DNA of 64,000 nucleotides from Diacronema lutheri (Eukaryota; Haptophyta; Pavlovophyceae; Pavlovales; Pavlovaceae), in the NCBI GenBank assembly GCA_019448385.1, contig JAGTXO010000006.1, positions 62,001 through 126,000 on the forward strand. The letters run 5' to 3'. Shown piece after piece: positions 12,541-47,770 of the stretch. Each line of letters opens with the position of its first letter. Position 1 is the stretch's first letter. Made by a program: the position numbers and the translations under genes. The notes beneath the pieces were generated by a model, which saw only the letters and a list, made by a program, of their open reading frames with translations, did not search any database and was not told the DNA's origin.

Positions 12541-12634
12541 TCAGAGCATGGCGCCCGCCCGCTCGAGCCGGACCTCCGCGCAGCCGGACTCGCCCCGCCC
12601 CGGGCTGCTCTGGCTGGGCGACGTCGTGCGCGCC

Positions 12635-12919: not shown

Positions 12920-13109
12920 TGTGGTCTCATTGTGTGTTTGGGCGCGAACGGAAAACGCGCGAAGGGTGGCGACGAAGATCGTTGGGTTGGGTTGGGCCAC
13001 CGGCTCCCGAGGGTTGCTTGTGGCGCTCGACTGACCGTTGGCCCAGCTTTTTTTTTTCTCGAACCTACTGTGGAGCCGCCTGCAGCGTGATCTCCCGCGC
13101 AAAACGACC

Positions 13110-16221: not shown

Positions 16222-16432
16222 TACCCTGCGGACTGGCGCCACTCCTGCCGCCCCTCGCGCCGAGCCCGCGGCGCGCGCCGGGCAGTTGTTGCGCGCGCAC
16301 GCAGCACGCAGCGCGCAGACAAGACGTGAAAAATGTGTCGCGGCGAGGACGAGGGCGAGCCCCGGCGGCTCGGCGAGGCGTCGCATCTCACACACACAGT
16401 GGCGCACTCCGAACGGCCCGGTCCACATTGCG
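16222..16432. other. Spacer between helicase block and Fanzor relic
   Basis: About 210 bp without a supported gene. One frame reads CRGEDEGEPRRLGEASH, which faintly resembles the Fanzor stretch EADEARLGEAHS of the giant gene, so part of it may belong to the relic. Confidence 0.35.

Positions 16433-16462
<30 letters not shown>
16433..16462. repeat. Poly-C tract of 30 bases
   Basis: An uninterrupted run of 30 C lies at the left edge of the Fanzor relic. A matching poly-G tract (25 G) lies at 17759-17783, so the two tracts bracket the relic in inverted orientation. Confidence 0.9.
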
Positions 16463-16463
<1 letters not shown>

Positions 16464-16469
16464 CGCGCG

Positions 16470-17260
16470 CGGCTAGCCGACGCGCCGGCCTCTTGCTCGC
16501 GGCTGTAGACCCGGGCGCTGAGGGCCTCGTACATGCCGGGTGGCCGAGGGACAGAAGCCCGTCTCGGTCACGCTCGTGCAGCGCAAGCGCACTGCGCACG
16601 CGCGGCACGCGACCGCGCGCGAGACGGGCCACCGTGCAGCGCATCGGCCCCCGTCGGCGCCGGGTGCGCCGGGCGGCCGCGCCCTATGCGGCGCGCGGCG
16701 TGGAGCACCGAGGGCGCACGGTGCTGGAGGCCAACGAGCGGGTCAGCTTCACGCGCGCGCACACGCATGTGCGCACGCAGACGCGGCACGTGCACAACCC
16801 GCCCGCGCGGCTGAGCGCGCGGGCGGCGCGGCGACCTCAACTGGCGCGCGTGCGCGCTTGCGGCGGCGCGGTTCGAGCGCGTGCATGCGACCGGGCGCGG
16901 GTTCCGGCCCGAGCAGCTGCTCGTTGTGTGCGGCAACTGGCTGCACCGGTCGCGCGGCGGCGGCCGTGTGCGAGGCAAGCCGCCCGCGCTCGGTGAGGGG
17001 CTTGCTTTGGGCGCTGCGCCGGCTCGACATCGCGACGACCCTCGTACCCAAGCTGCGGAGATCCAACGGATGCTCGCAGCTGCGCGAGGTGAAGCGGAAG
17101 TGCGCCCGCTCCGAGCGCGACGCCCGCCGCGGACGCCGACGGCGCGCCGCTGGCCCGGCCGCGGCTGGCGGGCCGCGGCCGGTGCGGCGCGGCACCGGCA
17201 CGCTGCAGCCGTACGTACGCGCGCAGAGCGCCGGGCGGTCGCAGCGCGTGGCGGGTGGCG
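16470..17260 (+). pseudogene. Fanzor-like nuclease relic (diverged second copy)
   Basis: Fragments in shifting plus-strand frames line up in order with the intact Fanzor of the giant gene. LLLAAVDPGAEGLVHA has the RuvC-I AxDPG pattern. VLEANERVSFTRAHTHVR parallels VLDAGKYIAFHRESARVR. RPEQLLVVCGNWLHRS parallels RDRLLVCVGKWLRDH. RGLLWALRRLDIATTLVP parallels VGLLRELRRRGVAAVFVP. The order and spacing are conserved, so this is an older, broken copy of a related TnpB/Fanzor nuclease with several frame changes. It lies just upstream of a truncated copy of the giant gene's N-terminus. Confidence 0.55.
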
Positions 17261-17268
17261 CGGCGCGA

Positions 17269-17752
17269 TGCCCGCGGCGGCAAGCGTGACTCAGCGCGGC
17301 AACGTCGGGGGCGGTGCAGGCGGCGTTGAAGCGAACGAGAAGGTGGACGCGGCGGCGATGAGCGGCCACGGCCACACCGGCGCGTCACGGCCGCCGCCTC
17401 CGTCGCCTCGCGCGCGGCAGCGCGCGCGGCCGGCGCGACGGACGACGGCAGGGGCGTCGGCCGTGGCGGGCGTCGTGGGCGCGCCGCGCGCCAGCCACGC
17501 CGGCCTAGCCGGGCCGTCGTCGGCGTCGTCGTCGTCGGCGGCCTCGTCGTCGTCGGCCGGAACAGCGGCGCACTCGGCGCGAAGGAGGCCGACGGCAGCG
17601 CCGGCGACGCGCGCGTGTTGCCGCCTGCCGACAAGCTCGTCGCGCCGTGCGAGCGCGGTGTCGCCGTGTCGCCCTCGGCGGGCGACGTGGCGTGCGGCGC
17701 ACGCGACGTCGACGCGGCCGCTGCCGCACGGCGGAGCAGGCGTGGCTGGTGC
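17269..17752 (+). pseudogene. Truncated duplicate of the N-terminus of the giant Fanzor gene
   Basis: From the ATG at 17269 the frame reads MPAAASVTQRGNVGGGAGGV, then EANEKVDAAAMSGHGHTGAS. The giant gene has MPMAASVTKGPGVGDGAGGD followed by EAIKVEETAKTSGDGCTGT. Nucleotide similarity continues for about 200 bp (gcggcaagcgtgac, ggcgcaggtggcg-like blocks, gtggcgggcgtcg). The copy ends within 500 bp at a poly-G tract. It is best read as the start of a second, deleted element copy sitting head-to-tail with the intact one. Confidence 0.65.
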
Positions 17753-17758
17753 GGGGGC

Positions 17759-17783
17759 GGGGGGGGGGGGGGGGGGGGGGGGG
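17759..17783. repeat. Poly-G tract of 25 bases
   Basis: A run of 25 G, preceded by gcgggggc, ends the truncated N-terminal copy. It mirrors the poly-C tract at 16433-16462. Such tracts are slippage-prone and are also assembly-sensitive. Confidence 0.9.
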
Positions 17784-18062
17784 AGTTGGGAGGTCGGTCG
17801 ATAAGGTCGCTGGGGACAATCTCCCATCAGAAACTCCCGCTTAAACAGCCGCTAGGGCGGCCGCGTCCGGCACGCCCAGCGCCGCGACGAGCGCGATGCA
17901 TTCCACGAGCGCAGTGGTACATCGCTCGCCGTGGGGCGCACCACGGGCCTTTAATTTATGAGGCCAAGAGCGACGTCTTATCACACTTTCAAAAGCAGCG
18001 GATCAAAAGGCGTCTGCCAATCCGCCCGCGAGGACGACCGACGCGGACGACCAGCACGCGCG
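17784..18062. promoter_or_regulatory. 5' flank of the giant gene with a TATA-like word
   Basis: This 280-bp region is the least GC-rich part of the block. It holds TTTAATTTAT at 17950-17959, about 105 bp upstream of the proposed ATG, inside the small palindrome ggcc-N12-ggcc. It also holds cttatcacactttcaaaag (17979-17997). No coding motif is seen, although the giant frame stays open back to an ATG at 17958. Confidence 0.35.
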
Positions 18063-21000
18063 ATGGCGCAGGAGACGACCGGCTCGATGCCCATGGCGGC
18101 AAGCGTGACCAAGGGCCCCGGCGTCGGAGATGGCGCAGGTGGCGACGAAGCGATCAAGGTGGAGGAAACGGCGAAGACGAGCGGCGACGGCTGCACCGGC
18201 ACGCCTCCTCTGCGCCCGGCCGCGCGCGCGGCCGGCGAGGCGGACGACGGAGGGGCGGCGGTCGTGGCGGGCGTCGAGGGCGAGCGCGACGCACTCGCCA
18301 AGATGGGTGCCGGCGGCTGCGACGACGACGCACGCGAGCCGCTGTCGGCCGGCAAGCCCGGCGCACTCGCCGCCGCGGCGACCGTCGGGGGTCTCGGCGA
18401 GCTCGTCGGCAGCCTATGCGCGTGGCTGGCGCACGGCGCGGCTGGCGGCGCCATCGCGGCCATCTCCCCCGGGACGGCCGCGCGCGGAGCAAACGGCACG
18501 CCGCAGCGCGCCGAGCCGCCGGCCGCCGGCGATCCCGTCGCTCCGCACGCGTGCGTCGCCGCTGCGGCGCCCTTGGCGGGCAGCGCGGCGGCGCCGTCGT
18601 CGGCCGCGCGCGACGCGCAGCGCGGCGTCGCGGGATTCGACGCGGCCGCGCACGCGCACGCGCGCGACGGCAGGCGGGCGGCACGGCGGATGCGCAAGCA
18701 AGAGGGGGCGGTGCACAGGGCCTTCCGCAAGTCCCTCTGGCGCGACGCGACGTTTGTCGAGTTCGTTGAGAAGCTGCGCCCCGACGGCAGCGCGCAGCTG
18801 CTCGCGCGCGAGCCCACGCGGCACGCGGCGGCGGTGCTGTGCGAGCTCGCGCGCGGCCGCGACGGCGCGAGCGGCGCGGCCGGGCTGCTGCACGAGATGA
18901 GAGCCGCCGATGCGCGCGCGCGCGAGGCCGCCAAAGCGGCGGAGGCAGCGCGGCTTGCGCACGGGACGCTGCGCATCGTGGCAACCGTGGCGCTGGGCGG
19001 TGCGGTCTTCGCCGGCATGTCAGCGCTGGTCGTTGCTTGCGCGGCGCGCACGGCGACCGGTGCGCTCTTTGGGGCCCGCCGCCCGCGGGCGGCCGCGCGC
19101 GGAGCCGACGACGCGCTCGGCACGCTGCAGCGCGCCAAGCCGCCGCCCGCCGACAAGGGCAAGCGCAGGCGCGCCAGAGCCAACGACGACCCCGTCGACG
19201 CGGCGCGCAAGGCCGTGGGCAAGGCGGAGGGCAACTGCCGCAAGGCAGCCCGCCGGCTGCACCTCGCTGCACTGGGCGAGGAGGAGGCGCAGCAGCGCGT
19301 GCTCGACGCCGAGGCGGCGGAGCAGCTGGCGCGCTCGCGCGAGCCGGCCGGCGGCTGGGTAGGCAGCGCGCGCGCGCGCGCGCGCGCGCGCGCCCCGCCG
19401 CGCGCGCGCCCGTCGATTGGCGTGCGCGCAGCGCAGAACGGCGCGCCAGCTCCGTCACCTGCGCGCCGCCGCGCCCGTGCCCCTCGCGCGCAGGGGCGCC
19501 CTGCGGACCTGCGGCTGCAACAGGCGCACTTTGGCATTCGCGAAGATGCCGACGCGGATGTGCGCCGCGCGCACGAGGCGCTGCGCCGGGCGAGACAGGG
19601 TGTGGCGTGCGCCAAGGCCAACGTGCGGCAGATGGAGGCGGCGTTGCTCAACGCGACGCGCTGCGCCACCGCGGTGCTCGCGCCGCGTGGCGTGCCGGAG
19701 GGTGACGAGCAGGCCGCGGCGAGAGAGCAGGCGGCGCTGGACCGGGAGGCGCCGCCGGCCGCGGAACGCGCGGCGCCGACGGCGCGCTCGCCCTCGGAGC
19801 TGCCGTCCGAGTGGCGCCCGCCAGCGGTCGGCCGGCGCCCGACGCCGCGTGCACTGTCGCACGCCGCGGGGTGCGGGGACGACAACCCGTTTGCGCCGCT
19901 CGCAACCGTCAGCGGTGATTGGTCGCCCACGCCGAGCTTGCGCCCGCCGTCCTCGCCGCCGCGGCAGCCGCCGTCCGACCGCCGCAGCGCGCAGCGTCGC
20001 AGCGCGCGCGCGCGGCCGCCGAGGCCGACCGTTTCACCCGAGGAAGCGCTCGCAGCCGAGCGCCAGGCGCGCGCGCTGTCGGAGCAGGCGGAGCAGAGGC
20101 GCGCCAAAAAGGCCGCCGCCAAGGCCGCGCGCCGCGCCGCGCGCGCCGCCGACAAGCGGACGGCGCGCGTCGTCCACGCGTGCGTAAGCGCCGCCTTGCA
20201 GCGCGTCTGCACGAGCGTCGCCACGGGCACGCCTCTCGCCGTGCTCCGCGAGCGCGCCGAGAGGCCGCGCGCGCCGAAGGCCGCGCCCGCGCCACCACGC
20301 CGCGCAGCGGACGGCGGCCGCGCGCTCCGCCACGCGCGCCGTGCGGCCGATGCGGCGGCGGAGCGCGAGGCGGCGGTGGCGGCCGACGCCGACGAGCGGT
20401 TCGAGCGGCAGCCCTCCGCCGCCCGGTTCGACGGCGGCGATGGCGGCGGAGGCGGCCACGTCGAGGCGAGCGCGCGACCGCGCGCCGGCGAGGCCGGCGA
20501 GGCTGGCGCGCACGGCGCGCCTGGCGCAGCGGGGACCCCGGCGGCGTCGCTCGCGTCGCGCAGCCCGTGTGATGCGCGCCGCACGGCACGCCTCCCGCAC
20601 GCACGCGCCGCAGCCACCTACGCAGGCAACGGCGGCTGGGGTGGCAACGTCGGCGGCGACGTGTGCGGCGATTGTTTCGGCGGCGGCGGCGTCCGTCGCG
20701 ACGCCTGCGGCGGCGGCGACGCCACCTGCGGCTGCGGCGATGGCGGCGTCGGTGCTGGCGCTGGCGAGGCCCCTGCACACGGTGCGCCGGCGCGCGCGAC
20801 GGCGTCGCGCTTGCTGCGCTTGCTCGGCGCGCCACGCGCCGTGCTCGGTGCGATGGCGCACGCCGCGGCCGTGTTGGCGCGCGGCGTGGCCGCAGCCGTC
20901 GCTGGCGTGCGCGCCGCCGCGCGCGCCGTGCGGCGCGCGCGCCGCCGAGCGCCTTGCGCGCGCCGCACGGCTGCGCGGCGCGCTCGCAGCCCGCCGATGC

Positions 21001-24000
21001 GCGACGTCGACGGCGCCCTGCGGCCCTCACCGTCCTGGCCGCGCACACGCCTCGTCTGCGGCCGGCGCCTCGCGCCTCTGCGCCGCGCGGGCGCGCGCCC
21101 GCCGCCCGCACACGCCGCGCCGAGTTCCCGCGCGCGCGCTGCGCAACCCGACAGCGACGCGCCGGCGTGCGCGCCGCGGCGCTCGGCGCCTGTCGGTGCG
21201 CCGCCGCGCGCGCGTGGCCTGTGCGCGGCGCGCGCACGGCGCGTCCTCGACGTCGCCGGCCGCGCGGCGCGGAGCGCGCGCCTCGGCGCGCGCATCACGC
21301 GCCAGCGCACGCCGGGCCCGTCATCGGAGCCCTGCACGGCCGAGAGCGGCGACGGCGCGGGCGCCGGCGGCATCGGCGCGGCGGCGCCTGGCGCGGCGAC
21401 GATGCGCGCCACCGGCGCGCGCGCAGCGCGCGCTGCGGCGGCGGCGGTCGGTGGCGCCTCGCGTCTCGCGCGCCGCGCGATGGCAAGCGCCGCCGCCGCT
21501 GCCACCTCCATCGCCGGCGCTGCCGCCTCCACCGTCGCCGCCGCCGCCGTTGCCATCGGCGCGGCCGTCACGTCACCGGCGTTCGCCGCGGCGCGTGGCA
21601 TGGCGGCCGCATGCGTCGCTGCCTGCGCCCGCCCCACCGCCGCGCAGGCGGCCGCGTCGCGCGCGCTCGGCGCGCTCTTCGTGCTCGTCGACGCGGCCGA
21701 CGCGGCGGGCGACAGCGACGCCGCGCTCGGCGCGCTCGCGGCCGCGGTCGACGCGACGGAGCTGCGCCCGCCGCCGGCCTTTTGGCGCGCGGGCCGCGCC
21801 GCGGCGTACGCACCGCGTCCGCCGCCCCTCAACTCGGCGCGGCCGCGCTACAACCGGCGCGCGCGCGCACCTAGCCCTCCCGTCGCGGCCGCGCGGCGCA
21901 ATCTCGAGCGCGCGGTGCGCGAGCTCACGCGCGCCGCGCGCGCTGAGCGCGAGCGCGCGCCGGCGCCGCGCGGCGCGCGCGGCGGCGTGCTCCACGCGCT
22001 GCGCGCGTCGCTCCCCGTGCACGCGCGCGTTGCGCTCGGCACGGACGCGGAGCTGCGCGCGGACATTGCCGCGTTCGCGCGCGCGCGCCGCGAGCTGCAC
22101 AGCCTCACCGACGCCGAGGTGGCGGCGCTCGCGCGCCCGGACGGGCCGCCGCTGCCCGTGCGGCTCGCGTGCACGGCGGTCGCGCGCGCGCGCGGCGTGA
22201 CCGTGCTGCTCGACATCGTGCCGCGCGGCGGCGGCGCGCCCGAGCGGCTCGTGTGCCGCGCCCGTCGCCACGGCGCCGCCACGCGCACGCCACGGCCGAC
22301 AGCCGCCGTTATCGCGCGCGCGCCTTGCATAGCGGCGCGCGTTGGCCACACTGAGCCGGCGCGCGCGTGCGCGGGCGGATCGATCGGGGTCGCGCGCCTC
22401 CGTTCAGCGCGCCGCCGCTCTTGGCGTGGGGCGCGGCTCGACGTGCACACCCGCGAGCGGCTGGCCACACCGGTGCCAGGCCACGTCGTGGCCTGCGCCG
22501 CCGCCTCGGCCATCGGCGCGTGCGTCGCTCGCGCGCGGCTTGGGCTTGCACGGCTGGCGCGCGCGTGGCCCTGCGCCTCCGCTCCACTAGCCACTGCTGC
22601 TGTCGCCTTCGCGCCTGCCGCCGACGGTGTTTTCCCCGCCGCACTAGCCGCTCCTGCATCCGCCTTCGCGCCTGCCGCCGATTCTCCCGCCCCACTAGTT
22701 GCTCCTGCATTCGCCTCCGCGCCTGCCACCGACGGCGTTTTTCCCGCGCCACTAGCCGCTCCCGCTGTCGCGTCCGCGCCTGCCGCCGCGGGCGTGTCTT
22801 CCGCCCCACTAGCCGCTGCCGCTGCCGCCCTCCAGGCCGCCTCCGACAGCGTTTTCCCCGCCCCACTAGTTGCTCCTGCATTCGCCTCCGCGCCTGCCAC
22901 CACCGGCGTTTTCCCCGCGCCACTAGCCGCTCCCGCTGTCGCGTCCGCGCCTGCCGCCGCGGGCGTGTCTTCCGCCCCACTAGCCGCTCCTGCATCCGCC
23001 TTCGCGCCTGCCGCCGATTTTCCCGCCCCACTAGTTGCTCCTGCATTCGCCTCCGCGCCTGCCACCGACGGCGTTTTCCCCGCGCCACTAGCCGCTCCCG
23101 CTGTCGCGTCCGCGCCTGCCGCCGCGGGCGTGTCTTCCGCCCCACTAGTCGCTGCCGCTGCCGCCCTCCAGGCCGCCTCCGACGGCGTTTTCCCCGCCCC
23201 ACTAGTCGCTGCCGCTGCCGCGTCCGCGCCCGCCGCCGCGGGCGCGTCTTCCGCCCCACCAGCCATCGCCGCCGCGCCCGCCGCCAACGCGCGCACCGCC
23301 AACGTGCCCGTTGCCAACGAGGCTACCGCCACCGAACCAGCCGCCCTTGAGCTTCCCCTCCAACCCGCCAACTCGGCGCTGCTTGCGTGGGCGGGCGACG
23401 CGGCTGCGCGCCGGCTGGCCGCCGCCGCCGCGAGCGCCGGCCTCCCGCAGGCAGAGGTGGAGCGCATCGCCAGCGGCGACATGCTCGCCTCAACCGTCGA
23501 CGCGTGCTGCGAGGTCGTGCTGCGCGTGCACGGGCAGGCCGGCGGCGGGCATGTCTGCCACGTGCCGCTCGCCGCGCAACCCGCGGTGTTTCAGGACGAC
23601 GCCGAGCGCGCCGCGCTGCTGCACCGCCTGCGCAGCGAGGCGACAACGCAGGCTGTCATCGGCGTGTGGAGCCCGTCGGACGAGCGCGGCGGCGCGGGCG
23701 GTGACGACGGCGCGCAGCTCGCCTCCGGCCATTTCACCGCGTTGCGCCTTGTGCGCGTCGCGCGCGCGGGCGAGCATCGCTACGACGCGGTGCTCGTCGA
23801 CACGCTCGCGTCGCCCTGCAGGCAGGCGCTCATGCTCGCCAAGGCGATAACTGTCACGCTGCACGCGGCGGGTCTCGACATTTCGCGCGTGCGCCGCGCG
23901 CTGCTGCTCAACGAGGCGGCGCAGCGTGGCGCGACGTGCGGCCTCGCGATAGTGGGCGCGCTCAACGACGCGCTCGCCGCGGCGGGCTGCTCGTCCGCGC

Positions 24001-24334
24001 CGCGCACGTTCAGCGTGGCGGACATGTACGCTGTCGGCGAGCGCCTCCGCGTCGCGCTGACCGGCGCGGCCAGCGATCGTGCGCCGGGCGGCGTCTGCGC
24101 GGTCACGAGCGCGGTGCGTGGCGGGGGCAGCCCCGATCGCGCCGAAACGCCGCCGCAGACGCGCGGCGCCAAGGCCGCCGCTGGCGTCACCGCCGCCGCC
24201 ACCGCCGCCGCCACGCCGCCGCCGCCCGCGCTGGGCGCCGCCGCCGCCGCCACCGCCGCCGCCGCCGCTGCTGCCGCCGCCGTGGCCGCGCCGCCACCGC
24301 CGCCACCGCCGCCGCCGGCCGGCGACGAGGGCGA

Positions 24335-24385
<51 letters not shown>

Positions 24386-27300
24386 GCGCACGTTCTTGAA
24401 GCTCGCGCCCAGGGCGCGCGCGGCCGCCTCGGCGCGTGAGGCGTTGCGCGCCGCGTGTGCGCGCGCGGACGCGGCGGCGTCGTCACACGCGTCGGCGCCG
24501 CACGCGCCCGCCGGTGCGCGCCGCCGGCGGCGCGCGGGCGCAGGCGAGCTGGCGCTCGCGGCTGCGCGCGCGCTCGCCTCGACGGAGCACGGCGATTTGA
24601 CGGACGACGCGCTCGAGGCCGCCATCGAGCAGGAGCTGGGCGACGAGCGCGGCCAACTGCTGCTGTGCACGCGGGGCGCAGCGGCGCAAAGGCCCGCGCT
24701 TTGCCGGCTCCTGAAGCACGCGTGCGCGTCGGCGCGCGCGGCGAAGCGCGCGCAATTCACGGTGTTCGTCGTGCGCGCGCCCACGCGCGGCGAGCGGGGG
24801 GGCGCCGCCGCGACGCGCGTGGACTCGGTGGTCGAGCTGTCGTGCGCGCTGCACGAGAAGGCGGGCGCGCTCGGCGGCCTCCAGAGCGTCTGTGTGCGTG
24901 GCTTTGCCCTCGAGCGCCGCCGGACACTCGACGCTGGCGCCGAGGCCGGCGCGTCCGCCATCGGCCAGGACGAGCAGGTCGAGGCAGAGGCGGGCGAGGC
25001 GTCCGTCGCCGGCGTGACGATGGCCAAGCAGCTGCGTCAGTTTGCCGAGCAAGCTGCCCGCGACGACGTGCTCTTCCGCGTCGCCGTGTCCGAGGCCGAC
25101 GCCCACGCCCGGCTGGCGCGCGTTGCGGGTGACTATGTCGGCGCGTACAGCGTCGTGCTCGCAGTCGCCGGGCTCGTCTGGCTGGCCAAGGCCGACGAGG
25201 TTGCGCCGGCGGCCGCCCAGTCCGCCGCCGCGCCGCCCGCCGCCCCGCCTGCTGCCGCCACGTCCGCCGACGCCGAGCGCGACGCCTCGCCTTCCGACCG
25301 CCTGCGCGCGCTGACGCTCGCCGTGCGAGTCGCGCTCGCGCGCGGCGTGCTGCGCCACCTCCTCGCCGACGCGTCGCCGGGCGCGTCCGCGACCGCTGGC
25401 GGTAGCTGCGCGACGCCCGTCGACGCGGCCGCGTCCGACGCCGCGCCGCCCGCCACGGGCGTCGTGACGAGTGGCGTTGCGGCGGGCGCTGTGGCGGCCG
25501 CACCGGCTGCTGCGGGCGGTGCGATGGCGGGTGCATCGCCCATCACGCGGCCGGCGAAGCGCGCGCGGCGCACGCTCACCGCCGCTCCAGCCGCCTCGGC
25601 CGTTGCGGCCGCTGGAGGCGCACGCGCTGGTGCACGCGGCGCGGCCGGCGCGCCTCGCGCGCGCGCCGCGCGCGCGCCGGCCGAGTACGTCTGGCTTGCC
25701 ATCGCGCGCCGGATGCTGGCGGCGCGACACGCGGCGGCCGCGGGCGGCGACTTTGTTGCGTCGTGCGTCGCCGCGATGCAGGCCGAGTACGACGACGGCT
25801 GTGCCGTCGTCGTCGGCGACGCGCCTGATGACGCCTTGGTCGAGGCTGCGGCGGCGGCGCTGCTCGAGGGCAAGCACGCGGCGGTGAGCCTCGGCTGCGT
25901 CGACCGGCCGGCGGTGCTCGTCGTGCAGCGCGCCGTGGATGCGCCCACGTCGCGCGTGCACGGGTGGTGCGCGCACGCGGCGGGCGCCGCCGAGTTTGAC
26001 GAGGGCGCCGCGCACGGCGTGTTCAACGCGATCGTCGAGCGCGCGTGGGCGCTGCGTCCGGACCCGGCCGACGGCAGCCCGCCGCCCACGCGCACGTGGG
26101 AGGTCGAGCAAATCGCTGGCGACGCGCCCGACCAGGCGGGCGTGGCCGCGCTGCGCGTGCTCTACGCGCTCGTCGCGGCGCACGGCCGCTACCGCTCGGC
26201 CGCCGCGCTCTTTGGCGCGCTCGCGCAGCTGCACGCGCCCGACGCCGCCGGCGCGCGCGCGGAGGTCGTCGCGGCGGCGTGCGCGGTGCCGCACGGCGCG
26301 CGGCCGGGCGCCGCGCCGGCGGCCGCGCGGGACGACGCGAGGGAGCGCGCATGGGAGGGCGCTCAGATCGCCGCGCTCGCCGTCGGCGCGGACGCTGCGC
26401 GCAGGCGTGTCGCGCCCGTGCGCGCGCTCGTCGACGCGCTCGGCACGCCGCCGACCTCGGCGATCACGGGCGGGCCGGCGGTGCGGCTCGCGGGCGCGGG
26501 CGACGGCGGCCACGGTGCACGGTGGGTGGGCGGGCAGGCGGCGACGCCCGCCGAGCAGCTGCCGAGGGAGCTGCTGCGCGCCTACCACGAGGCGGTGCTG
26601 TGCGTCACGCCCGGCAGCCTCCAGCTCGGCCCGGCGGCGCTCGACGCGGTCACGCGGCCGCGCGAAAACGACACGCTGGAAGGCCTCCTCGCGCGCGTCA
26701 GCTGGCAGTGCGGCGCGAGGGCGAGCACGTGCGCCATGCTCGCCACGTTTTCCGAGCAGGCGGGCACCGGCTCGCGCGTCGCGCTCAAGGCCCTCCGCAC
26801 GAGCTCCGACCTGGCCGGGCTGACGGCGGCTGCGGTCGGGCAGCAGGCGCCGCAGACGCCGCCGCCGCCGCTGCTCGTGATGCTCGGCCGCTGCCCCAGC
26901 CCGCTCGTCGGCGGCGGCCTCTTCCCGCCCGACCGCGCGACGGGCGAGCCGGCGGTGCACGCGGCGACGTCCGAGCTCGCCGTCGAGCTGCTGCGCGACG
27001 CGCGCGCGCTGGCCGGCACGGACGGGCGGCTCGTCGTGCTGTGCCTCGAGGCGTCCAACCCGCTCTGGTTCTGCCCCAAGGTGCGCGAGCTCGAGCTGCC
27101 GCGGACGCGGTCGGACGGCGTGCGCGCGTCCGGCTGCACCTGCCCCGCGACGTGCAGCGATGCGCGCGGCGCGGCGGGTGGCGCTGCCCGCGGCGCATCG
27201 ACGCGGCCGGCGGCGCGCGCGATCAACAAGGCGGTGCTCGACCACTTCGTCGCGCTTTTCGGCCGCGAGGGCTTCGCGACCTTTGAGTTTGCGGGCGGCG

Positions 27301-30300
27301 GCGAGGCGAGCTGGCTGTGCGACAGCGCGGCCGGCACGACGACCGTCGCGGCGTGCGCGTCGCTGCCGCCGCGCATGGGCGATGGGCAGCTGGCCATCCG
27401 GCGGCACACGCTCGGCACGGGCGCCGACGCGCCGGCGCACGCCGTCGTCTCGCTCCGCGTCGCGCACGTGAGCCACGCCATCCGCCGCGCGGCGGACGAC
27501 GGCGGCGCGCGCGCCGAGCGGATGGCGCGCGCCGCGCGCGCGTTTTGCGATGTGGCGGCCGCGCTGCGCGTCGACGCGATCCTGGCGGAGGTGCCCGAGG
27601 ACCGCCCGACGGGCACGCCCTTCCTTGGCGGGCTGCTCGAGTTTTGGAACAAACGCAACGGGAGCTGGACGGCGCCAGCCACGCTCGCGCTCGGAGACGT
27701 GCGCGAGGTGGCCAAGCGGACGGCCGACGCAGCGGCCGGCCGAGCGGACGAGGTCCCTGCGGCTGGCCGTCCGCAGGTCGCGGCGCGCGCGTGCGCTGGC
27801 GCGATTGGCGGCGGCGCGGGCGCGGCGGGCGCCTCGGACGCTGCGCCCCGTGCACTGGCGGGCGCGTCGGGTGCGCGCACGGACGGCGGCCCTGCCGACG
27901 CACCGCGCCAGCTGGAGAGCCGCTACGGCGAGGCGAGCAAGCTCGACCTACCCCAAGATTCCACTACGGGCTGCGTCCTCGACGCTCGCGAGGCCCAGGA
28001 CCGCGCGCGCGTGCCTGCTGCGCCCGACGGCACAGCGCTGCGCCGCGTGCTCGACGCCGTCGGCGCGGGCGCGCCCGCGCAGCGCAGCCCGCGCTGGCAC
28101 GACGAGCGATGGGAGGAGGTCACGGGCAGCAAGGTTGGCGACGTCGTGAACGACAACGCCGGCGTCGCGCACAAGACGCTCACCGACGAGTACGTGCACC
28201 GGCGGCGGCGCGAGGTGCGGACCAAGGCGACGACCGCGGGCATCCTCGGCGAGGCCGTCGCGCTGCGCAAGCTGGCGGCCGCGTACGGCATCACCGTCGT
28301 GTGCAACCTGCCGATGGTGCGCGCGGACCCGCACGACAAGAGCGCGCCGTTCGCCTTCTCGCCGGACGGGCTCGCCATCCTCCCCGAAAACAACGAGCAG
28401 GTCCTCGTCGAGGTGAAGACGCTCACCAAGGCGGGCGCCACGGCGCACGAGGACGGGCCGCCGCAGCCGCACCGCGATCAGCTGCAGCTCGGCATGCACG
28501 TCCTCGGCGTGAGCAAAGCGCTCTACGTGCAGTACCTCAGGCACGAGGACCGGATCGTCGTGCACGTCGTGACGCGCGGCGCCGGCTGGCTTGCATTCGC
28601 GCAGCCGAGGGTGCAGGCCTTCTGGGCGCGCGTCGTCGAGCGGCGCGCGCGGCTCGAGCGCGCGCGCGCCGACCACCCGGCTGCGAGCCGGCGGCACCGG
28701 CGGCAGCAGACGCCGGCCGGGCCGCCGCTCGTGCTCGCGCTGGACGGGCGCATCCCCGCCGCGCGCGCCGCCGCGCTGCACGCCGTCGCGCACGGCACCG
28801 CGAGCGCGGCGGCGGTGGCGGCGACGGCGGCGACGGGCGACGCGACGGCGTTGCAAGACGCGATCGCGGCGCTGCGCGCGCCCGTCGGCAATGCGGCGAT
28901 CGACAGCGCAGCGCGTGCGGAGCGCGCGGCCGTCGAGCGGGCGATCGCGTACCTCGGGCAGCCGGCGGGCGACGCCGCCGCCCGCGGCACGGCCGAGGCG
29001 GCCGAGGAGGAGAGGACGGTCGACGCCGACATCTGCGCGTTGCTGCACCAGCTCGGCGCGAGCGTGGCGCACGTGCACGTCGAGGACGCGGATTGCGTCA
29101 CGCGTGAGCACTGGGGCGGGGCGGTGCTCGCTGCAGCGGGCGACCCGTCGAGCGCCCCCGCCATTTCGAGCGTCATCGTCGCGCACATCGTGCGCCTCGC
29201 CGGCTTTGGCGTCGAGCTCCCGCAGTCGATTCGCGTCGCCCCCAGCACGGCCAAATGGCACGAGGGCTGGCTCGACGTGCAGTGCGTGCTGCTGCGCACG
29301 CGCCGGCGCGGGCGGCGCGACGACGACTTTGTGGCCGTCGTCAGGCGCGGTGGGCGCTGGTTCGCGTGCGAGCCCGGCCGCGCGCGGCGGCTGCAGTGGC
29401 GGTCGGTCCTGCGCCGCGCGCGCGGCGGCGTCGACGGGACCGGCGAGGAGGCGTTCGCGGTCGTCTACGTGCGGCGCGGCGACGCGGCCGGCGACGCGGC
29501 TGGCGACGCGCAGGCCGAACGGGCGCGCGGCGGGCGCGCGCGCAGGCGCACGCGCGGCGGCACGCGCAAGCGCAAGCGCGGCGCCTCCGCCGGGCTCGAG
29601 GCGGCCGCGCCCGCCGGCGCGCCGGCTGCCGCGCCCGCCGGCGCGCCGGCGGGCGCTGCTCACCGCCCGCCCGCCATGCGCGCCACGGTCGCCGCGCGCA
29701 CCACGCGCTCTGTGACCGACGCGCGGCACTCGGCGCCTGCCGCCACGGTTGCACCTGTCTTCGACTGGCGCGCCGGCCGCCCGCCCCCCGCCGCTCGAGC
29801 CCGCCACCCGCGGCCGCGTGGGCGCGCGCCACCGGGCAAGGCCTGGGACAGCGTCTCGGGTGCGTGGGCGGACAAGCCGACTGGTGCTGCCGTCGCCGCC
29901 GCGCCGCCGCCGCTGCCGCCCGCCGCCGCGCCGCCGCCCACCGCCGCGCCGCCGCCCGCCGCCGCGCCGCCGCCCGCCGCCGCGCCGCCGCCCGCCGTCG
30001 CGCCGCCGCCCGCCGCCGCGCCGCCGCCGCCGCCGCCACCGGCGGCGCTCGGCCGCCGGCAGCACGTCGGCGCGGACGGCAGCGCGGCGGGCCGGCGGCT
30101 CGCGGCCATCGCACGGCGGCAGCGCGGCGTGCGCGCGCCGCCGCCCGCCGCGCGCTTCCTCGCCACGCTGCCGCCACCGCCACGCGACGGCCTCGCGCGC
30201 ACGAGCAAGCAGGCGCGCGCGAGGCGCAACGCGGACGGACGGCCGGCGCACGCGCGCGCGGCCAACGCGCGCGCCTTCTACCGCGGCGTGGAGCTCGGCG

Positions 30301-33300
30301 TGCACGCGACGCGCGCCATCGTCGACGCGCGCCACGCCGACCTGCCGCAGGCCGTCGTCATGGCGGAGGCGCGGGCGATCGTCGCGCGCTCCGCCGGCGG
30401 CGGCGCGCTGCTCGCGCCGGACGACGTGCGCGACCTGTGCGACGCGCAGACGGACGCCGATCGCGCTGCGATCTGGGCGTCGGTGGGCGCGCACGAGGCG
30501 ACGCGCATCTTCGCGCTCGTCACGCGCAACGCGAGCTTGGCGGGCGCGGCGCTGCTCGTGCTGCACACGCCGGCGGGCGCGCCGGCGCGCGCGCTCGGGC
30601 TCGTGGCGACGCGCTCGCGCGCGCCGTCGACGGGCGCGCCGCGCGACGCGCACAGGGCGCTGGTGCAGCGGTTGGACGTGCTGATGGACGCGATCGCCGC
30701 GGCGCGAGGCGCGTCGCCGCTCGAGCTCGAGCTCGCGCTCGCGCCCGAGCCGCAGAGCGCGTGCAACGCGCGTGCGGCCGCGCTGCTCTGCCTGCAGGCC
30801 GTCGCGGACGCGAGCGGCCGTCCCGCCGCTGAGGACGCGCTGGCCGCGCTCGACGACGCGCGCGGCATCGACCGGCACTGCCACGCCGTCCGGCAGCAGA
30901 TCGAGGCGAAGCTCGCGTGGCGGCGCGCCGACGGCGCCGTCGGCGTTGACGGCGCCGACGGCGCGCCCGCGCTCGCGCCTGCCGCCGCACCGCCGGCGTG
31001 CGCGCCGGCGCACGCTGCCGGCGAGGCGGCGGTCGACCAGGCGATCGTCACGCGGGTGCGCGACGCGCTGCGCGCGTGGGCGACGACTGGCACCGCGCCC
31101 AGCGCGGCGGTGCTCGACGACGCCTGCGCCGCGTACACGGCGCGCGCACGCGCGCGCAAGGACGCGCGCACGGCGCTGGGCCCGACGCGCGCGGCCGAGC
31201 TGCTCGCCGCGGCCGCGCGCGGCGGAGCCGAGGGGGCGGATGCCGCGCGCGCGCTGCTCGGCGGCACGCCGCGCCTGCTCGTCGTGCTCCTCTGCGTGCC
31301 CGTCGCCGCGCCGTCCGGCGAGCCGCCGCGCCCGGTCGGGCTGCTCGTCGCCGACCGGCCGACGGACGACTCGCGCCCGGCCGCGCTCGTGCGCTACGAC
31401 TTTGCGCCGCTCGACGCGGACGTGGCCGTCGCGGTCGGCGCGCATGCCGTCGCGCTGGCCAGTGCGATCTGGGCGCTGCTCGCGGCCGAGGGGGAGCCGC
31501 GGCCATCGCCCGTCGTGCGCTCGCAGCCGCGCGGCGGCGACGATGGCGCGCGTGCGCTCGCAACGTTCGCGTGCCTCGACGCGCTGATGACCGCCAGCGT
31601 CGGCGCGCACGGCCTCGCGGGCGGCGCGGGCATGCTGCCCGCGCTGGTCGCGCGAGGCGCCGCGGCCGCCCAGCGCGAGCGGCAGCTGCGCGCGGCCGCC
31701 GAGAGGCTGGGCGGCACGGTCGCTGGGTGGCCGGACACGGGCGCGAGCGCGGCGGGCGCGAGCGTCGACGACGAGGCGCGCACGTACGAGGTCGAGGCGG
31801 TCGTCGACGAGCGTCGCAAGGCGGGCAAGAGGGTGACGTTCGAGTTCCGGATCAGGTGGCGGGGCTACGACGAGAGCGCCGACACGTGGGAGCCTGAGGC
31901 CAACGTGAGCAGCGACCTCGTCGCCCAGTTCCGCAAGACGCGCGACGAGCAGAAGCGGCGCGCGGGCGGATCGGGCAGCGGCAGCGGCGGCGCGGGCGCG
32001 GCGTCGGCATTGGCGTCGGCGCCGCTTCGCGCGCACGGCGTGTCGGGCGCCGCGGGCAAGCGCGCCGTGGCGGGTGCCGCCGCGAGCGCGCGCGGCGCCG
32101 CGGGCGCGCGCGCGCCGAGCGTTCCCCGCGCGCGCGGCGTCGAGAGCGCGCGCGTGGACGAGCCCGCTGCGCCGAGCGCGCGCGCCGCCGGCGGCGCGAC
32201 GGCGCGCACGCGCGGCAGCGTGCTCCTGGGCTTCGTGGTCAAGCGCTCGACGCTCAACGCGGGGCCGCAGGCGGTGACGGCGCAGCCCGGTGCGCGGAAG
32301 GAGCTGCGGCGCATCGCGGCGGCCGTGCACAGGCTCACGACACAGGCGTACCGCGTCATCAACAAGGTGGTGCGCGACGAGGCTGCGGTGGCGAGCGCGC
32401 AGGCCGTCGGCGCGGCGTCGGGCGGCCCGTCGACCAGCGTGCACACGTCGACCACGATGGACAAGGGAACCGTCCGTGCGATCTTCTCGGCCATCGGCTG
32501 GCACAAGGACGAGAGCACGTACGGTGCAGCGCCCCGAGGCAAGCCCGCCGAGCAAGCCGCCGCGCAGACCAAGGCGGCGACGGCGCGCGCCGTCGGCGAG
32601 ATGGCCGAGGGCGTCCAGCCCGTCTGCGCGGTGGGCCTCACGGAGATCCTCGAGGCGGAGGCGACGCAGGTGTCCACCGCGTGCCTGATGCATCCATCGC
32701 GCGTCGTGAACGGGCTGCTCCGCGACGTCGTCCGCGCGGCAGTCGAGCGCGACGAGGCGCTCGTCGCGCTGCCCGAGATGCAGCGAAACGCGCGCGTGCG
32801 CGAGCTGTGCGAGCGGCTGCTGCGCGGCGACGTGGAGGGCGCGCGCGTCGGCTGCCCCGCCGCGCTCGACCGCCACCTGCCCGACATGGTCCTCCACAAG
32901 ATCGACTACAAGTGCACGCCCACGAAAAGGTGGAACTACGACCGGCACACGACGCGCTACTTCCTCGTGCAGATCCGCACCCTGCAGCACGTGGCCGAGG
33001 GGCAGGCGCTGCTCTGCCGGCTCGCGCACATCCACACGCAGCTGACCGGACGGCCGCCGCGGTACAATGTGGCGCCGCTGCGCACGCACAATGTGCGCGC
33101 GAGGCGTGGCTGCCGCTGCCGCCGCCGAGCGCCCAAGCGCGCGCGCCGCCGCCGTGCGCGCCGCCCCGCGGCCAGGTTGGTCACGCGCCCGCGCGCTCGC
33201 GCGCCGCGCGCTGCGCGCAGGTGCCGCGCAACGTGCGCCTCGCCGCGAACGCCATCTGGGAGACGCTCCCGGACGACGAGCGCAAGGAGCTGCGCGCGCG

Positions 33301-34798
33301 GCTCAAGGCGCTGGACCTGCGCGACCACGATGGCGAGCCGATCAAGTGGACAGGCACAAGCGGCAACATCCCGCCGATGTCGGACGTGCGCGTCAGGTAC
33401 GCGGTCTTCGCGACGCGCTTCGACATCTCCAACCGCGTCTTCGACTACGCCGGGCGCGAGCGGCCGCCAGCCGATCTGCCGTGGCACGCGCGGCGCTCGT
33501 GGGTGGGCCTCGCGCCGCTGCCGCGCGTGCCGCTCCCGGGCCGGCAGCCCGTCAAGTCGGTGGTGACGGATGGCGTCGCCGTGCACGCCGTCGGGACCGT
33601 CCTCGTGCCGAAGGCACAGGCGCCGGCCGGCGGCTCGGGCGTCCTGCACCGCTGGCGCCGGCCGGACGGGCGCATCGCCGTCGCGCTCGGCTCCGAGCTG
33701 CGGCGGGCGATCGACGTCGAGGAGGCGGTCGTCGTCGCGGCCGACCCGAACATGGGCAACATCACCACCTACTCTGCGCACGTCGGGCGGGCGGCCGTCT
33801 GGCGGCAGTTCACGCAGCGCGCGCGCGCGCGCGCCGCGGGCTTTGCGCGCGAGACGGCCAAGACCAACGCGGCGCGGCGGCGCGTGCGCAAGGACGGGCG
33901 CGGCGAGGAGTTCAGCGTGGAGGCGGACGAGGCGCGGCTTGGCGAGGCGCACAGCGCCAAGGTGCTCGACGCGGGCAAATACATCGCCTTCCACCGCGAG
34001 AGCGCGCGGGTGCGCGAGCGCGCCGCCGAGCACGTGTACGACGCGCCGGCGCGCCGGAAGGAGCGCTGGCGGCGCGACAGCGGCGGGCGGTCCAACGCGG
34101 CGCGCGTCGCCGAGGCGCTCATCGCGGCGCACTGCGTCGACGGCGTGACGCGCGACCGGCTGCTCGTGTGCGTGGGCAAGTGGCTGCGCGACCACAAGGG
34201 CGCGCAGCCCAAGGGCGCGCCGCCCGCCTTCCAGGTGGGGCTGCTGCGCGAGCTGCGGCGGCGCGGCGTCGCGGCCGTCTTCGTGCCCGAGCCGTACACG
34301 TCGATGCACTGCTCGATGCCGCGGCTCGCCAAGGGCGGCAGGCTGCAGCGCTGCGGCGCGGAGCTCGCGCAGAACCCGCGCCTGCCCGTGGCAAAGGGCG
34401 GCACGCGCACGGTGCACGCGCTCGTCATCTGCCCGGCGTGCAACGGCGGCAAGAAGCCCGTGCACCGCGACTACAACGCCGCGCGCAACATCTTCTACGA
34501 CGTGCACGACATGGCGGCGCACGCGGCCGGGCGCGACACCACGTCGACGCCTGAGCGCTTTGCCCTCGTGCTCGCCTGGTGGGTGCGCGGCGAGGTGTGC
34601 GAGCGTGAGGAGCGCATGGTGCACGGCGAGGGCGACGACTGCGACGACGAGGGCGACGTCGGTGACGACGACGGCGGCGGGCGCGGCGGTGGCGGCGGGC
34701 GCGGCGGCGGCGTTCGCGCCCGCATTCCCGCCCGCAGAGCTGTCGGCGCCAGTGCCGGCGGCGGCAGCGCGCGCGGGCCGAAGCGCGGCCGGCGTTGA
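18063..34798 (+). CDS. Giant multidomain protein (~5,535 aa) with Ulp1-like peptidase, YqaJ exonuclease, chromodomain and C-terminal Fanzor nuclease
   Basis: Exon 1 (18063-33092) and exon 2 (33221-34798) join across a 128-bp GTGCGC...GCGCAG phase-0 intron lying within the Fanzor part. The start MAQETTGSMPMAASV is chosen because the truncated upstream duplicate begins at the equivalent of MPMAAS (18087). An earlier ATG at 17958 is also in frame. Residues 1-1500 are Ala/Arg-rich with coiled-coil-like stretches and one hydrophobic segment (IVATVALGGAVFAGMSALVV, about 303-322). Then come an Ala/Pro repeat block (~1510-1737), a Ulp1-like peptidase (~1800-2000), further peptidase-like segments, a YqaJ exonuclease (~3340-3510), a Pro-rich linker (~3950-3995), a chromodomain (~4575-4631) and Fanzor (~4720-5480) with a basic NLS-like end (GPKRGRR). 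Whether it acts whole or is processed is unknown; an active Ulp1-like domain would allow self-cleavage. Known motifs in one continuous frame make coding convincing despite GC bias. Confidence 0.8.
22590..23272 (+). repeat. Coding tandem repeats (Ala/Pro-rich) in the giant gene
   Basis: Imperfect units of about 60 bp encode variants of GVFPAPLAAPAVASAPAAAG and GVSSAPLAAPASAFAPAAD. Blocks of several units are themselves repeated (for example the cgcctccgcgcctgccacc segments near 22710, 22890 and 23050). The frame is kept throughout. This is probably a flexible linker or spacer subject to length change. Confidence 0.85.
23466..24060 (+). other. Ulp1/C48-like cysteine peptidase domain in the giant protein
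   Basis: The order of catalytic residues fits the Ulp1/adenain fold: His1890 in SGHFTALRLV, Asp1913 in DAVLVDTLA, Gln1954 and Cys1959 in NEAAQRGATCGLAIVGALN, with the Q-x4-CG spacing usual for the family. C48 enzymes cleave SUMO-like tails or polyproteins and are common passengers in eukaryotic DNA transposons. Activity and substrate are inferred. Confidence 0.6.
24195..24390 (+). repeat. Polyalanine/polyproline linker in the giant gene (GCC/CCG repeats)
   Basis: Runs of gccgcc and ccgccg triplets encode Ala10-, Pro9- and Ala17-like tracts just after the Ulp1-like domain. They separate it from the next segment. Confidence 0.85.
28080..28585 (+). other. YqaJ/lambda-exonuclease-like nuclease domain in the giant protein
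   Basis: QRSPRWHDERWEEVTGSKVG is the N-terminal signature (RSxxW...R...TGS). GILGEAVALRKLA supplies Glu3397. SPDGLAI supplies Asp3435. LVEVKTLT supplies the E-x-K pair Glu3450 and Lys3452. QLQLGMHVLGVSKALYVQY is the typical following helix-strand. All residues of the PD-(D/E)xK metal site are present. In phages and large viruses this family resects double-strand ends for single-strand-annealing recombination. Confidence 0.8.
29030..29500 (+). other. Possible degenerate ubiquitin-peptidase-like segment in the giant protein
   Basis: The stretch with WLDVQCVLLRTRR, DDDFVAVVRRGGRWFACEPG and EEAFAVVYVRRGD has the strand pattern of the C-terminal half of a USP or a related cysteine peptidase (xxHYVAYVR..WYxxDD..AYxLxYxR). 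The usual histidine is not evident. This is a weak call from pattern only. Confidence 0.25.
29905..30048 (+). repeat. Pro/Ala tandem linker in the giant gene
   Basis: About eight copies of an 18-bp unit (gcgccgccgcccgccgcc) encode AAPPPA-type repeats. It separates the YqaJ-containing half from the half carrying the chromodomain and Fanzor. Confidence 0.85.
31785..31956 (+). other. Chromodomain in the giant protein, directly upstream of Fanzor
   Basis: YEVEAVVDERRKAGKRVTFE is followed by FRIRWRGYDESADTWEPEAN and then DLVAQFRKTRDEQ. Tyr4575, the RIRWRGY strand and the DTWEP turn are the canonical aromatic-cage and hydrophobic positions of chromodomains that read methylated histone tails. In chromodomain-carrying retroelements such modules steer integration to heterochromatin. 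A similar targeting role here is inferred. Confidence 0.85.
32220..34620 (+). other. Fanzor (eukaryotic TnpB-like) RNA-guided nuclease domain
   Basis: A helical N-terminal region (about 500 residues) precedes a split RuvC nuclease. RuvC-I Asp5185 lies in VAADPNMGNITTYS, RuvC-II Glu5367 in VFVPEPYTSMHCS, and RuvC-III Asp5427 in VHRDYNAARNIF. A four-cysteine zinc site (HCSMP...QRCG...CPAC) sits between the last two, as in TnpB and Fanzor (TS..C ... C..C ... RDxNAAxNI). All three acidic residues are intact, so activity is plausible. The domain is interrupted by the gene's only intron. Fanzor proteins use a short RNA, usually encoded at the element's 3' end, to guide DNA cutting. Confidence 0.85.
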
Positions 34799-35269
34799 CG
34801 CACGGCCGAGCCACGCAGCGGTCGACGCTTTGCGGGCTCCGCCCAGGTCGCGCGCGGCTGGCGACGCGTACCGCATTCGGCACGCCCGTGCACGCCGCCA
34901 CCCGTGGCCGAGCGCGCCGCACCAGCCGGCCCGCTCCAACCGCCGTGCGGATCACGGACGCTCGCTACGGCTCGTCGGCGCGCGTCACCTGCGCCGGCGG
35001 CCACGGCGCCGTCTGCTCCGGCCTCGTCGCGAGCAGCCCGACCGCTGCTCGCCGCCCGCACGCCGCCGCAGCAACGCTGCGCGTCGTGCTCCCCCGCTCG
35101 CCAAACGCGAAGAGCTCCCTCACAAGGACGTCCTTCCGAATGGCCCGCGCTGCACTCGGGGCGCTCTACGTGCCCCTGATCGGATTTGGCTTGACCATCT
35201 ATACTGAACCCGCTTCGTAGCGTCCGGTCTTTCGAGGGGGGTGCGGGCAACACGCGGAAAGTCGCGGCA
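34799..35269 (+). other. 3' flank of the Fanzor gene; candidate site of its guide (omega-like) RNA
   Basis: About 470 bp between the Fanzor stop and the convergent Sfi1-like gene. No gene is recognised. GC falls toward the end (atcggatttggcttgaccat, 35178-35197). TnpB and Fanzor guide RNAs normally overlap or follow the 3' end of the nuclease gene and run to the element's right end, so this is where one would be expected. That placement rests on family knowledge, not on a seen structure. Confidence 0.3.
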
Positions 35270-41976: not shown

Positions 41977-42026
41977 CGTGCGCGCGACGGTCGCGGTGAA
42001 CGTGTAACGAACGGAGCCGTTCGTCG
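41977..42026. promoter_or_regulatory. 50-bp bidirectional promoter interval
   Basis: The start codons of dph2 (minus) and the IQ/WW-like gene (plus) are only 50 bp apart. The sequence includes cgttacacgttc (minus-strand reading gaacgtgtaacg); no TATA box is obvious. Confidence 0.4.

Positions 42027-47728: not shown

Positions 47729-47770
<42 letters not shown>

Follow-up and report, generated by a model that had tools for sequence, protein, structure and literature searches.

The stretch of DNA analysed here (64,000 nucleotides of the haptophyte Diacronema lutheri, hereafter the window) is best read as containing a copy of a large mobile DNA element that spread recently and, on that same best reading, a giant Fanzor1 transposon of this design is new. 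With middling confidence we take it to be a recently amplified element whose main protein joins a RecE/YqaJ-type exonuclease to a chromodomain and a Fanzor nuclease and which operates by a guided-cut mechanism. The three domains were each identified independently, in support of this explanation, and lie co-linearly in one reading frame that recurs in many copies.

Extent, ends and copies of the element

9440..35204, + strand: whole element copy, about 25.8 kb
9440..9464, + strand: left terminus, (C)TATATA[C/G]GGCGCGGTCCGGGCTGG, from the junctions of 19 copies
35182..35204, + strand: right terminus, GGATTTGGCTTGACCATCTATAC

Similarity to other parts of the genome begins at window positions 9436-9441 in 23 other places and at 9431 and 9434 in two more. 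On the right it is lost at 35192-35214 in 12 of the 20 copies compared, these being the ones with sequence beyond, and the contig itself ends at 35191-35204 in seven and at 35013 in one. Outside these boundaries are host-like genes. The left-end sequence TATASGGCGCGGTCCGGGCTGG has 187 exact matches genome-wide and the right-end sequence 194, with none for either reversed control, and paired ends fall mainly into length classes of 21.5, 26-27, 29 and 31 kb. The YqaJ region is present at 86 scored genome places with 98-100% identity, and the chromodomain-Fanzor region at 88, the window's own copy being included in each count. Among these places, scored from 246 and 351 candidates respectively by a selection that favours intact copies, there is no internal stop in any of the 86 YqaJ or 88 chromodomain-Fanzor matches, and frames of at least 4000 amino acids hold 70 and 69 of them. 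The abundance of exact termini, the near-identity of the copies and the discrete length classes strongly support the mobile-element setting proposed in the first-pass annotation.

Contigs that end at the element gave rise to the idea of telomere-specific insertion, which was rejected since those contigs stop at the boundary of the element itself and the flanks of internal copies are varied. Copies reach 31 kb and the read N50, as deduced from part of PMC8379373, is about 24 kb, so that some flanks may be mis-joined. That the whole arrangement is an artefact of assembly or annotation, which the earlier annotation had allowed for, is nevertheless the least probable explanation considered. The repeats do exceed many reads and some contigs stop exactly at the element's right end, but dozens of places repeat the domain order and frame, each with private differences, and the many copies with the same frame contradict it.

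Fanzor and its probable fusion partners

23412..24140, + strand: region with a His...Asp...Gln...Cys pattern, read earlier as Ulp1-like
28071..28646, + strand: RecE/YqaJ-type exonuclease domain
31785..31937, + strand: chromodomain
32211..33092, + strand: probable N-terminal Fanzor part, in the same exon as the chromodomain (weak collinear profile match)
33221..34798, + strand: C-terminal Fanzor exon, with the RuvC nuclease and its zinc-binding region (Asp at 33743, Glu at 34289, Asp at 34469)

The Fanzor exon matches PF07282 with 28.5 bits (cut-off 26.3). Alone against solved structures it retrieved no Fanzor at E values up to 1, the matches being Cas12f1, at 0.29, and two that are due to chance, while a profile (A1) of the exon with two other D. 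lutheri Fanzors matched the Spizellomyces punctatus Fanzor, 8gkh, at E 1.5e-7 and 9cf0 at E 0.0029; with profile A2 the values were 3.7e-7 and 0.035. When the exon is aligned with the two other Fanzors, its D175, E357 and R416-D417 do not vary, and the glutamate is repositioned to just before the zinc-binding region, as described for Fanzor in the accessible part of PMC10711439. Cysteines that could belong to a Cys4 zinc finger are present, at 364, 378, 404 and 407 of this second exon, though the first pair is not CxxC. The profile matches and invariant residues bear out the earlier claim of a Fanzor with an intact Asp-Glu-Asp site. Its placement in Fanzor1 is assumed, because of its size and because no IS607 recombinase was recognised in the frames scanned.

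Of five database matches to the second exon, one was nearly identical (P0003) and one matched 7% of the query (P0007), and neither was counted as a relative. The other three are partial, with 39-50% identity, and too short to reveal an upstream fusion; two span the whole motif and keep Asp, Glu and Asp, and the third, which is truncated, keeps the first Asp. The probable N-terminal part has no Pfam match. It matches a profile of the two other Fanzors at E 7e-4 alone and 4e-3 within the joined product, in a three-sequence search.

The exonuclease domain matches the PHROG family of RecE-like exonucleases (phrog_434) at E 4.1e-16, PHROG having no curated cut-off, and PF09588 with 17.5 bits, below the cut-off of 22. 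It contains GILGEA, FSPDGL, LVEVKTL and RDQLQLG, which we take to be the catalytic motifs of RecE/YqaJ, and these results support the assignment of a YqaJ exonuclease. A homologue search with the YqaJ-containing portion of the long protein found none; the segment alone found one EukProt entry of Pavlova lutheri, 99% identical over 31%. The chromodomain, also claimed earlier, is confirmed by PF00385 (E 4.5e-12, 46.1 bits against a cut-off of 25.1).

The further proposal of a Ulp1-like peptidase is not supported. Its region has no Pfam match at E values up to 10, a genome-wide search with PF02902 gave nine places, none within the 64-kb window, and hhalign against two host Ulp1 proteins gave scores near zero. 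The AlphaFold model has a pLDDT of 43.8 and comparing its structure was uninformative, with no C48 structure among the 50 structure matches listed. Four more His/Asp/Gln/Cys-like stretches noticed by eye, including one from a 31-kb copy, match neither host Ulp1 nor each other; the single high score, between two of the stretches, comes from sequence that they share by overlap. While cutting, end-resection and chromatin domains are repeatedly co-encoded in one frame as had been suggested, the 'processing' component is unsupported, so that 'polyprotein' becomes a guess. A candidate for a further enzyme at 26.7-27.7 kb, with no Pfam match and an AlphaFold pLDDT of 35.7, was dropped.

The giant reading frame

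17955..33092, + strand: first exon block of the giant coding frame, with a further intron probable inside it
19359..19436, + strand: probable additional intron, GT..AG and phase 0 at both edges, with a (GC)n tract of variable length
22579..23238, + strand: Ala/Pro-rich tandem repeat, 57-bp period, 11.8 copies
33093..33220, + strand: intron, 128 bp, GT..AG, phase 0

The frame is free of stops from 17955 to 33566, or 5203 amino acids. The start given earlier, 18063, is merely an in-frame ATG. Between about 18 and 33 kb third-position GC tracks the giant frame, if weakly up to 23.4 kb, and thereafter it tracks the Fanzor frame. The exon that follows the 128-bp intron begins, at 33221, exactly where three of the five database homologues start. 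One continuous frame with a single intron had been described: the frame and the intron at 33093-33220 stand, but a second intron at 19359-19436 is likely, since the (GC)n tract near 19366-19409 varies in length (46, 40, 44 and 46 across the window copy and three others, two of which are shorter than the window copy, by 6 and 2 bases) and the unspliced frame is therefore not constant. The main product appears from its sequence to be one protein of roughly 5,000-5,700 residues in the window copy, and larger in the 31-kb class.

It is unlikely, though far from negligible, that the open frame instead yields separate YqaJ, chromodomain and Fanzor proteins through internal promoters, more introns or cleavage. 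At 75-84% GC long open frames come easily, and an antisense frame reaches 1784 amino acids; yet the longest runs in 200 first-order Markov sequences, all six frames considered, averaged 855 and never exceeded 1548. The variable (GC)n tract inside the frame can be counted in favour of separate products, and the position where the database Fanzor predictions begin could also mark the start of a separate gene. Adding the first exon gave no higher Fanzor profile score (32.4 bits for the joined product, 34.2 for the second exon alone) and no single alignment to the profile crosses the junction. Against this, the first exon does have its weak collinear Fanzor match, and from the chromodomain through to the intron there is one stop-free exon in all 88 scored copies.

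Selection is a separate matter. Twelve young copies, counted over YqaJ, have 23 synonymous and 47 non-synonymous variants, a near-neutral pN/pS of 0.80, so that selection on the fused protein is not demonstrated. Relative to the window copy, pN/pS ranges from 0.55 to 1.41 over the YqaJ region of 7 usable copies and from 0.43 to 1.34 over Fanzor exon 2 of 9 copies. In a diverged fragment, dN/dS is 0.31 and 0.70 in Fanzor pieces and 0.94 upstream.

Other parts, insertion and mobility

11692..12514, no strand: long inverted repeat, a self-palindrome, 90% over 833 bp
13035..15439, + strand: PIF1-like helicase gene, decayed, with several frame changes
16088..18088, no strand: segment in the place where a 31-kb copy has about 7.7 kb
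34799..35204, + strand: right-end non-coding region, candidate source of guide RNA by its position, as in known Fanzor elements

The inverted repeat has opposite-strand matches at 38 other places. The 7.7 kb in the 31-kb copy includes a ubiquitin-hydrolase fragment and about 800 extra N-terminal residues of the giant frame. PIF1 is recognisable by PF05970 (E 4.3e-16 in one frame, 4.8e-24 in another) and Pif1_2B (E 9.6e-14), its frames otherwise having a weak carbonic-anhydrase match (E 0.037). In the two copies compared, the window's and a 31-kb one, the frame changes in PIF1 are common to both and the giant frame within the same element is open. As RNA, the last 200 nucleotides of the right end fold with a z score of -2.29 (4 of 200 shuffles were equally stable), and the region has no Rfam match. 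In the frames scanned, Pfam revealed no transposase, Rep or integrase.

No target-site duplication of at least 2 bases adjoins the element in 18 of 19 copies; the remaining copy has one of 13 bp. Three similar unoccupied sites contain 11-19 bp that are missing from one occupied site. Junctions as variable as these would be more readily explained by break repair than by a transposase making a staggered cut of fixed length. The lack of duplication is also Helitron2-like, and a rolling-circle element with RepHel supplied in trans, the Fanzor fusion being a retention or passenger device, is a possibility to be taken seriously though on balance improbable. Chlamydomonas provides the precedent of Fanzor1 in Helitron2 with hairpins at both ends (PMC3627910), where exact ends show no duplication and duplications of 7-19 bp are otherwise frequent. 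Here, a short palindrome is found near each end (on the left in 14 of the 15 ends displayed, though not in the window copy), the element carries a PIF1 gene and the genome does have a Helitron Rep domain, at C63. However, that is the single match to Helitron_like_N (PF14214) in the genome against some 190 element ends, so the element is without a Rep detectable by that model. Further, PIF1 is decayed, with no HxH motif in its N-terminus by eye; asymmetric terminal inverted repeats were likewise not seen by eye, and the terminal sequences as DNA fold weakly (z -1.5, -1.9 and -0.05).

It is also doubtful, to about the degree that separate proteins are, that this is an ordinary high-copy transposon whose tyrosine recombinase or DDE enzyme goes unrecognised in the giant protein, with Fanzor and YqaJ as accessories. 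There is room for such an enzyme, as most of 24.4-27.7 and 28.6-31.65 kb is without any Pfam family match, and TATAC/TATATAC is repeated at both ends; short repeats so placed resemble recombinase cross-over sites. But neither domain was found by Pfam in the frames scanned, and there is no consistent target-site duplication of the DDE type. The element's length (21-31 kb) and its possession of a replication-type helicase together with a RecE-like exonuclease are virus-like features, but an endogenous polinton-like or other virus is very improbable: no capsid, packaging ATPase, polymerase or integrase matched in the frames scanned, which cover part of those of the length classes, and four scans of a viral contig collection with short peptide patterns yielded no relative.

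For the preferred guided-cut transposon, Fanzor would take a guide made of the element's right end and flanking DNA, and so guided would cut matching unoccupied sites. The chromodomain may keep the protein on chromatin while the fused exonuclease would resect the cut ends. Host recombination could then copy the element into the break, by which copies would be kept or gained, all domains being presumably expressed from one mRNA. Repair into a cut homologous site accounts for keeping or homing but leaves the spread to unrelated sites unexplained, so the element may be moved by some other activity.

Relation to known elements and significance

To our knowledge this would be the largest Fanzor fusion. 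RecE/YqaJ viral recombination exonucleases are usually encoded by phage genes of their own and work with a partner annealing protein, whereas the domain matching phrog_434 here is fused to Fanzor. Among the Fanzor literature matches listed, which mostly exclude subscription papers and supplements, there is no comparable fusion.

With Fanzor1 elements (Bao and Jurka 2013, PMC3627910) the element has in common a eukaryotic transposon setting, the Fanzor Asp...zinc-binding region...Arg-Asp motif and high copy number. It differs in that Fanzor is the C-terminus of a giant protein that also contains RecE and a chromodomain, in an element of 21-31 kb, and no known transposase superfamily is recognised. 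Chlamydomonas CRe-1, 2 and 3 (PMC3627910) are likewise in an algal host, with no duplication at exact ends or sometimes about 13 bp, and palindromic sequence near both ends; in contrast, here no Rep was detected, PIF1 is decayed, the ends are different and there is no TTTT target. The most abundant repeat of Auxenochlorella is also an uncharacterised Fanzor-encoding element and a major algal-genome repeat, described in the available portion of PMC12636532 without fusion, size or other domain. SpuFz1 (8gkh), whose RuvC region is the one aligned by profile, comprises residues 1-638, and its 2.1-kb locus has just one open frame, as given in the part of PMC10432273 accessible. Giant eukaryotic transposons also exceed 20 kb and carry accessory domains, and Fanzor is absent from the main text of the review on them, to the extent available (PMC6431247).

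The biological roles of Fanzor in eukaryotic transposons remain unknown, according to the accessible part of PMC10432273. If the present reading is true, a Fanzor fused both to a chromatin reader and to an exonuclease for end resection would point directly to guided cutting followed by recombination, and a young, high-copy family in a cultured and sequenced alga is a place to test the role of Fanzor.

Giant reading frame and its domains

The window has 5203 codons without a stop on the + strand at 17955-33566, and the giant open frame claimed by the first-pass annotation is real. GC content of the region is 75-84%, at which long open frames arise easily, but the longest frame in 200 first-order Markov simulations had 1548 amino acids (mean 855). 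Position-specific GC marks the giant frame as coding between ~18 and 33 kb, with a weak signal upstream of 23.4 kb; from ~33 to 34.8 kb it marks another frame, the one holding Fanzor. The switch occurs at a 128-bp phase 0 GT..AG intron, 33093-33220, and the first codon of the exon that follows is the exact start of three of five database homologues. These starts support the 33220/33221 boundary; alternatively they could reflect a separate gene start. Exon 1, the part before the intron, has a weak collinear match to the Fanzor profile, the joined product scores 32.4 bits against 34.2 for exon 2 alone, and no alignment spanning the junction was obtained with that profile.

Features of the giant protein and of a longer copy
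28071-28646, + strand, RecE/YqaJ exonuclease (PHROG RecE, E 4.1e-16; YqaJ under the Pfam cut-off)
31785-31937, + strand, chromodomain (Pfam, E 4.5e-12)
up to 34.8 kb, + strand, Fanzor exon (Pfam Cas12f1-like_TNB, 28.5 bits, cut-off 26.3)
L046:3093-3359, fragment of a ubiquitin C-terminal hydrolase (PF00443), 5′ region of a 31-kb copy, with PIF1 on one side and the giant gene on the other

The exonuclease, chromodomain and Fanzor are fused co-linearly in a single frame, and these three assignments of the first pass stand. As a single-sequence query the Fanzor exon has no match among solved Fanzor structures; a profile of it with two other D. lutheri Fanzors matches the Fanzors of S. punctatus (E 1.5e-7) and Parasitella (E 0.0029). 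In that three-member alignment the acidic residues Asp, Glu and Asp, which had been called intact, are invariant, and the Glu occupies the repositioned place known from Fanzors and described in PMC10711439. A Ulp1-like peptidase had also been proposed in the giant protein, and none of the tests made gives it support. For the other stretches tested, no Pfam hit has an E below 0.54. By eye, 28560-29250, after YqaJ, resembles a ubiquitin hydrolase end, with no Pfam match.

The intron at 33093-33220 had been thought the single one. A phase 0 GT..AG pair at 19359-19436 encloses a (GC)n tract of variable length (near 19366-19409; with its flank it measures 46 bases in the window copy and in one further copy, and 44 and 40 in the remaining two compared), from which we infer a second intron. 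Frames cluster near 4,500 amino acids, with 37 of 86 at YqaJ places and 43 of 88 at chromo-Fanzor places having 4480-4530. The ATG at 18063, previously taken as the start, has no special support: in a 31-kb copy (C89:1320747 onwards) the giant frame continues ~800 residues further upstream, and one copy has a frame of 6136 amino acids, so the window copy differs at the N-terminus and is probably shortened.

Element ends, copies and decay

The left end of the element is at 9440 (23 other places begin matching at 9436-9441) and the right end at 35204, similarity ending at 35192-35214 in 12 fetched copies that extend past it; seven contigs terminate at 35191-35204 and one earlier. Exact termini number 187 left and 194 right genome-wide, with none for reversed-pattern controls; the positions used below come from roughly the first hundred matches at either end. 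Among the matches listed, contigs C1-C46 hold 98 left and 93 right ends. When a script matched each left end to the closest same-strand right end no more than 45 kb away, 40 stayed unpaired and 58 copies resulted, together 1.6 Mb: 12 of 21.5 kb, eight of 26-27, seven of 29-29.5, 23 of 31.0 and eight others. The main text of the D. lutheri genome paper (PMC8379373) contains no word beginning ‘transpos’, and the repeat classes for which it is seen to state a share are LTR and LINE. The starts of C1 and C12 and the ends of C3, C8 and C32 are at, or one base off, the right terminus, so the element limits how far the assembly runs unbroken, and contigs joined across it may be chimeric. At C2:30440-30680 one copy is inserted into, or adjoins, the left end of another. 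An 833-bp self-palindrome (11692-12514, 90%) with telomere-like TAGGGTG/ACACCC units occurs at 38 other places and might serve as an origin, a hairpin or a source of dsRNA.

The 86 scored YqaJ matches (identity 100% in the window, 98-99% elsewhere) and 88 scored chromo-Fanzor matches have no internal stop, and frames of at least 4000 amino acids hold 70 and 69 of them; being the best of 246 and 351 candidates, they are biased toward intact copies. Across 4.5 kb of 12 copies, single-base codon variants comprise 23 that are synonymous and 47 that are not, a near-neutral pN/pS of 0.80, and three of the 12 have private frame-breaking indels. The copies are therefore young, and these counts do not demonstrate selection. 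The PIF1 helicase gene (13035-15439) has, by eye, at least four frame changes within 1.3 kb, which the window copy shares in position with one 31-kb copy, and its parts at 12.55-13.64 and 14.75-15.09 kb are unmatched in one 21.5-kb and one 29-kb copy. The giant frame has thus been retained in the amplified lineage but PIF1, in the copies seen, has not. The ubiquitin-hydrolase fragment of the 31-kb copy (E 4.3e-8) lies in a part missing from the window copy.

Insertion sites

Among 19 copies with both flanks, 18 lack an adjacent duplication of two or more bases and one has 13 bp; if the ends may shift, one further match, of 4 bp, appears. The preceding base is C in 14, the following base G in 15, and both hold in 11. 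A repeat containing AAGCGYCGTTAG hosts several insertions, and its longer form, AAGCGYCGTTAGTATAA, with 94 exact copies genome-wide (e.g. C4:1309260, C89:454536), flanks several. One occupied site lacks 11-19 bp present between the flank words at three similar unoccupied sites, suggesting a small target deletion, the sites compared being paralogous, not allelic. Misassembly over long repeats may also have shuffled flanks. The element lies between an O-fucosyltransferase gene (5627-7402, +) and a diphthamide-synthesis gene (40099-42300, -), and outside it a 2248-amino acid open frame (42000-48746) has just a weak WW match.

Relatives and a possible mechanism

Three homologues from public genome or metagenome data have 39-50% identity to the Fanzor exon and are too short to show fusion. 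Two further Fanzor families in the same genome, at C89:776500-784500 and C86:1017400-1024400, have frames of 1,584 and 1,412 amino acids with Ala/Gly-rich N-termini; chromodomain and YqaJ are absent from the former (Pfam) and the latter (by eye). No viral relative was found in a viral contig collection with short peptide patterns. Genome-wide, a single Helitron Rep domain was detected, at C63:35738-36019. Eukaryotic transposons bearing Fanzor are already known (PMC3627910, PMC10432273, PMC10711439, PMC6338049, PMC12636532, PMC12660748); a review of giant eukaryotic transposons (PMC6431247) does not name Fanzor in its main text. The paper listings and passages covered gave no earlier description of a Fanzor-RecE-chromodomain fusion; what is new is a giant Fanzor transposon with Fanzor so fused.

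Repair into homologous cuts, if that is how the element is copied, leaves its spread to unrelated sites unexplained, the main weakness of a repair scheme, and a Helitron-like or hidden recombinase step possibly moves it. PIF1 helps break-induced replication, and with PIF1 decayed a helicase would have to be supplied from elsewhere. RecE-type enzymes resect DNA ends. For the repair scheme itself, the domain anatomy suggests that Fanzor, with a putative guide RNA, would make guided cuts, RecE would resect the ends, the chromodomain would tether the protein to chromatin, and repair would then copy or retain the element.
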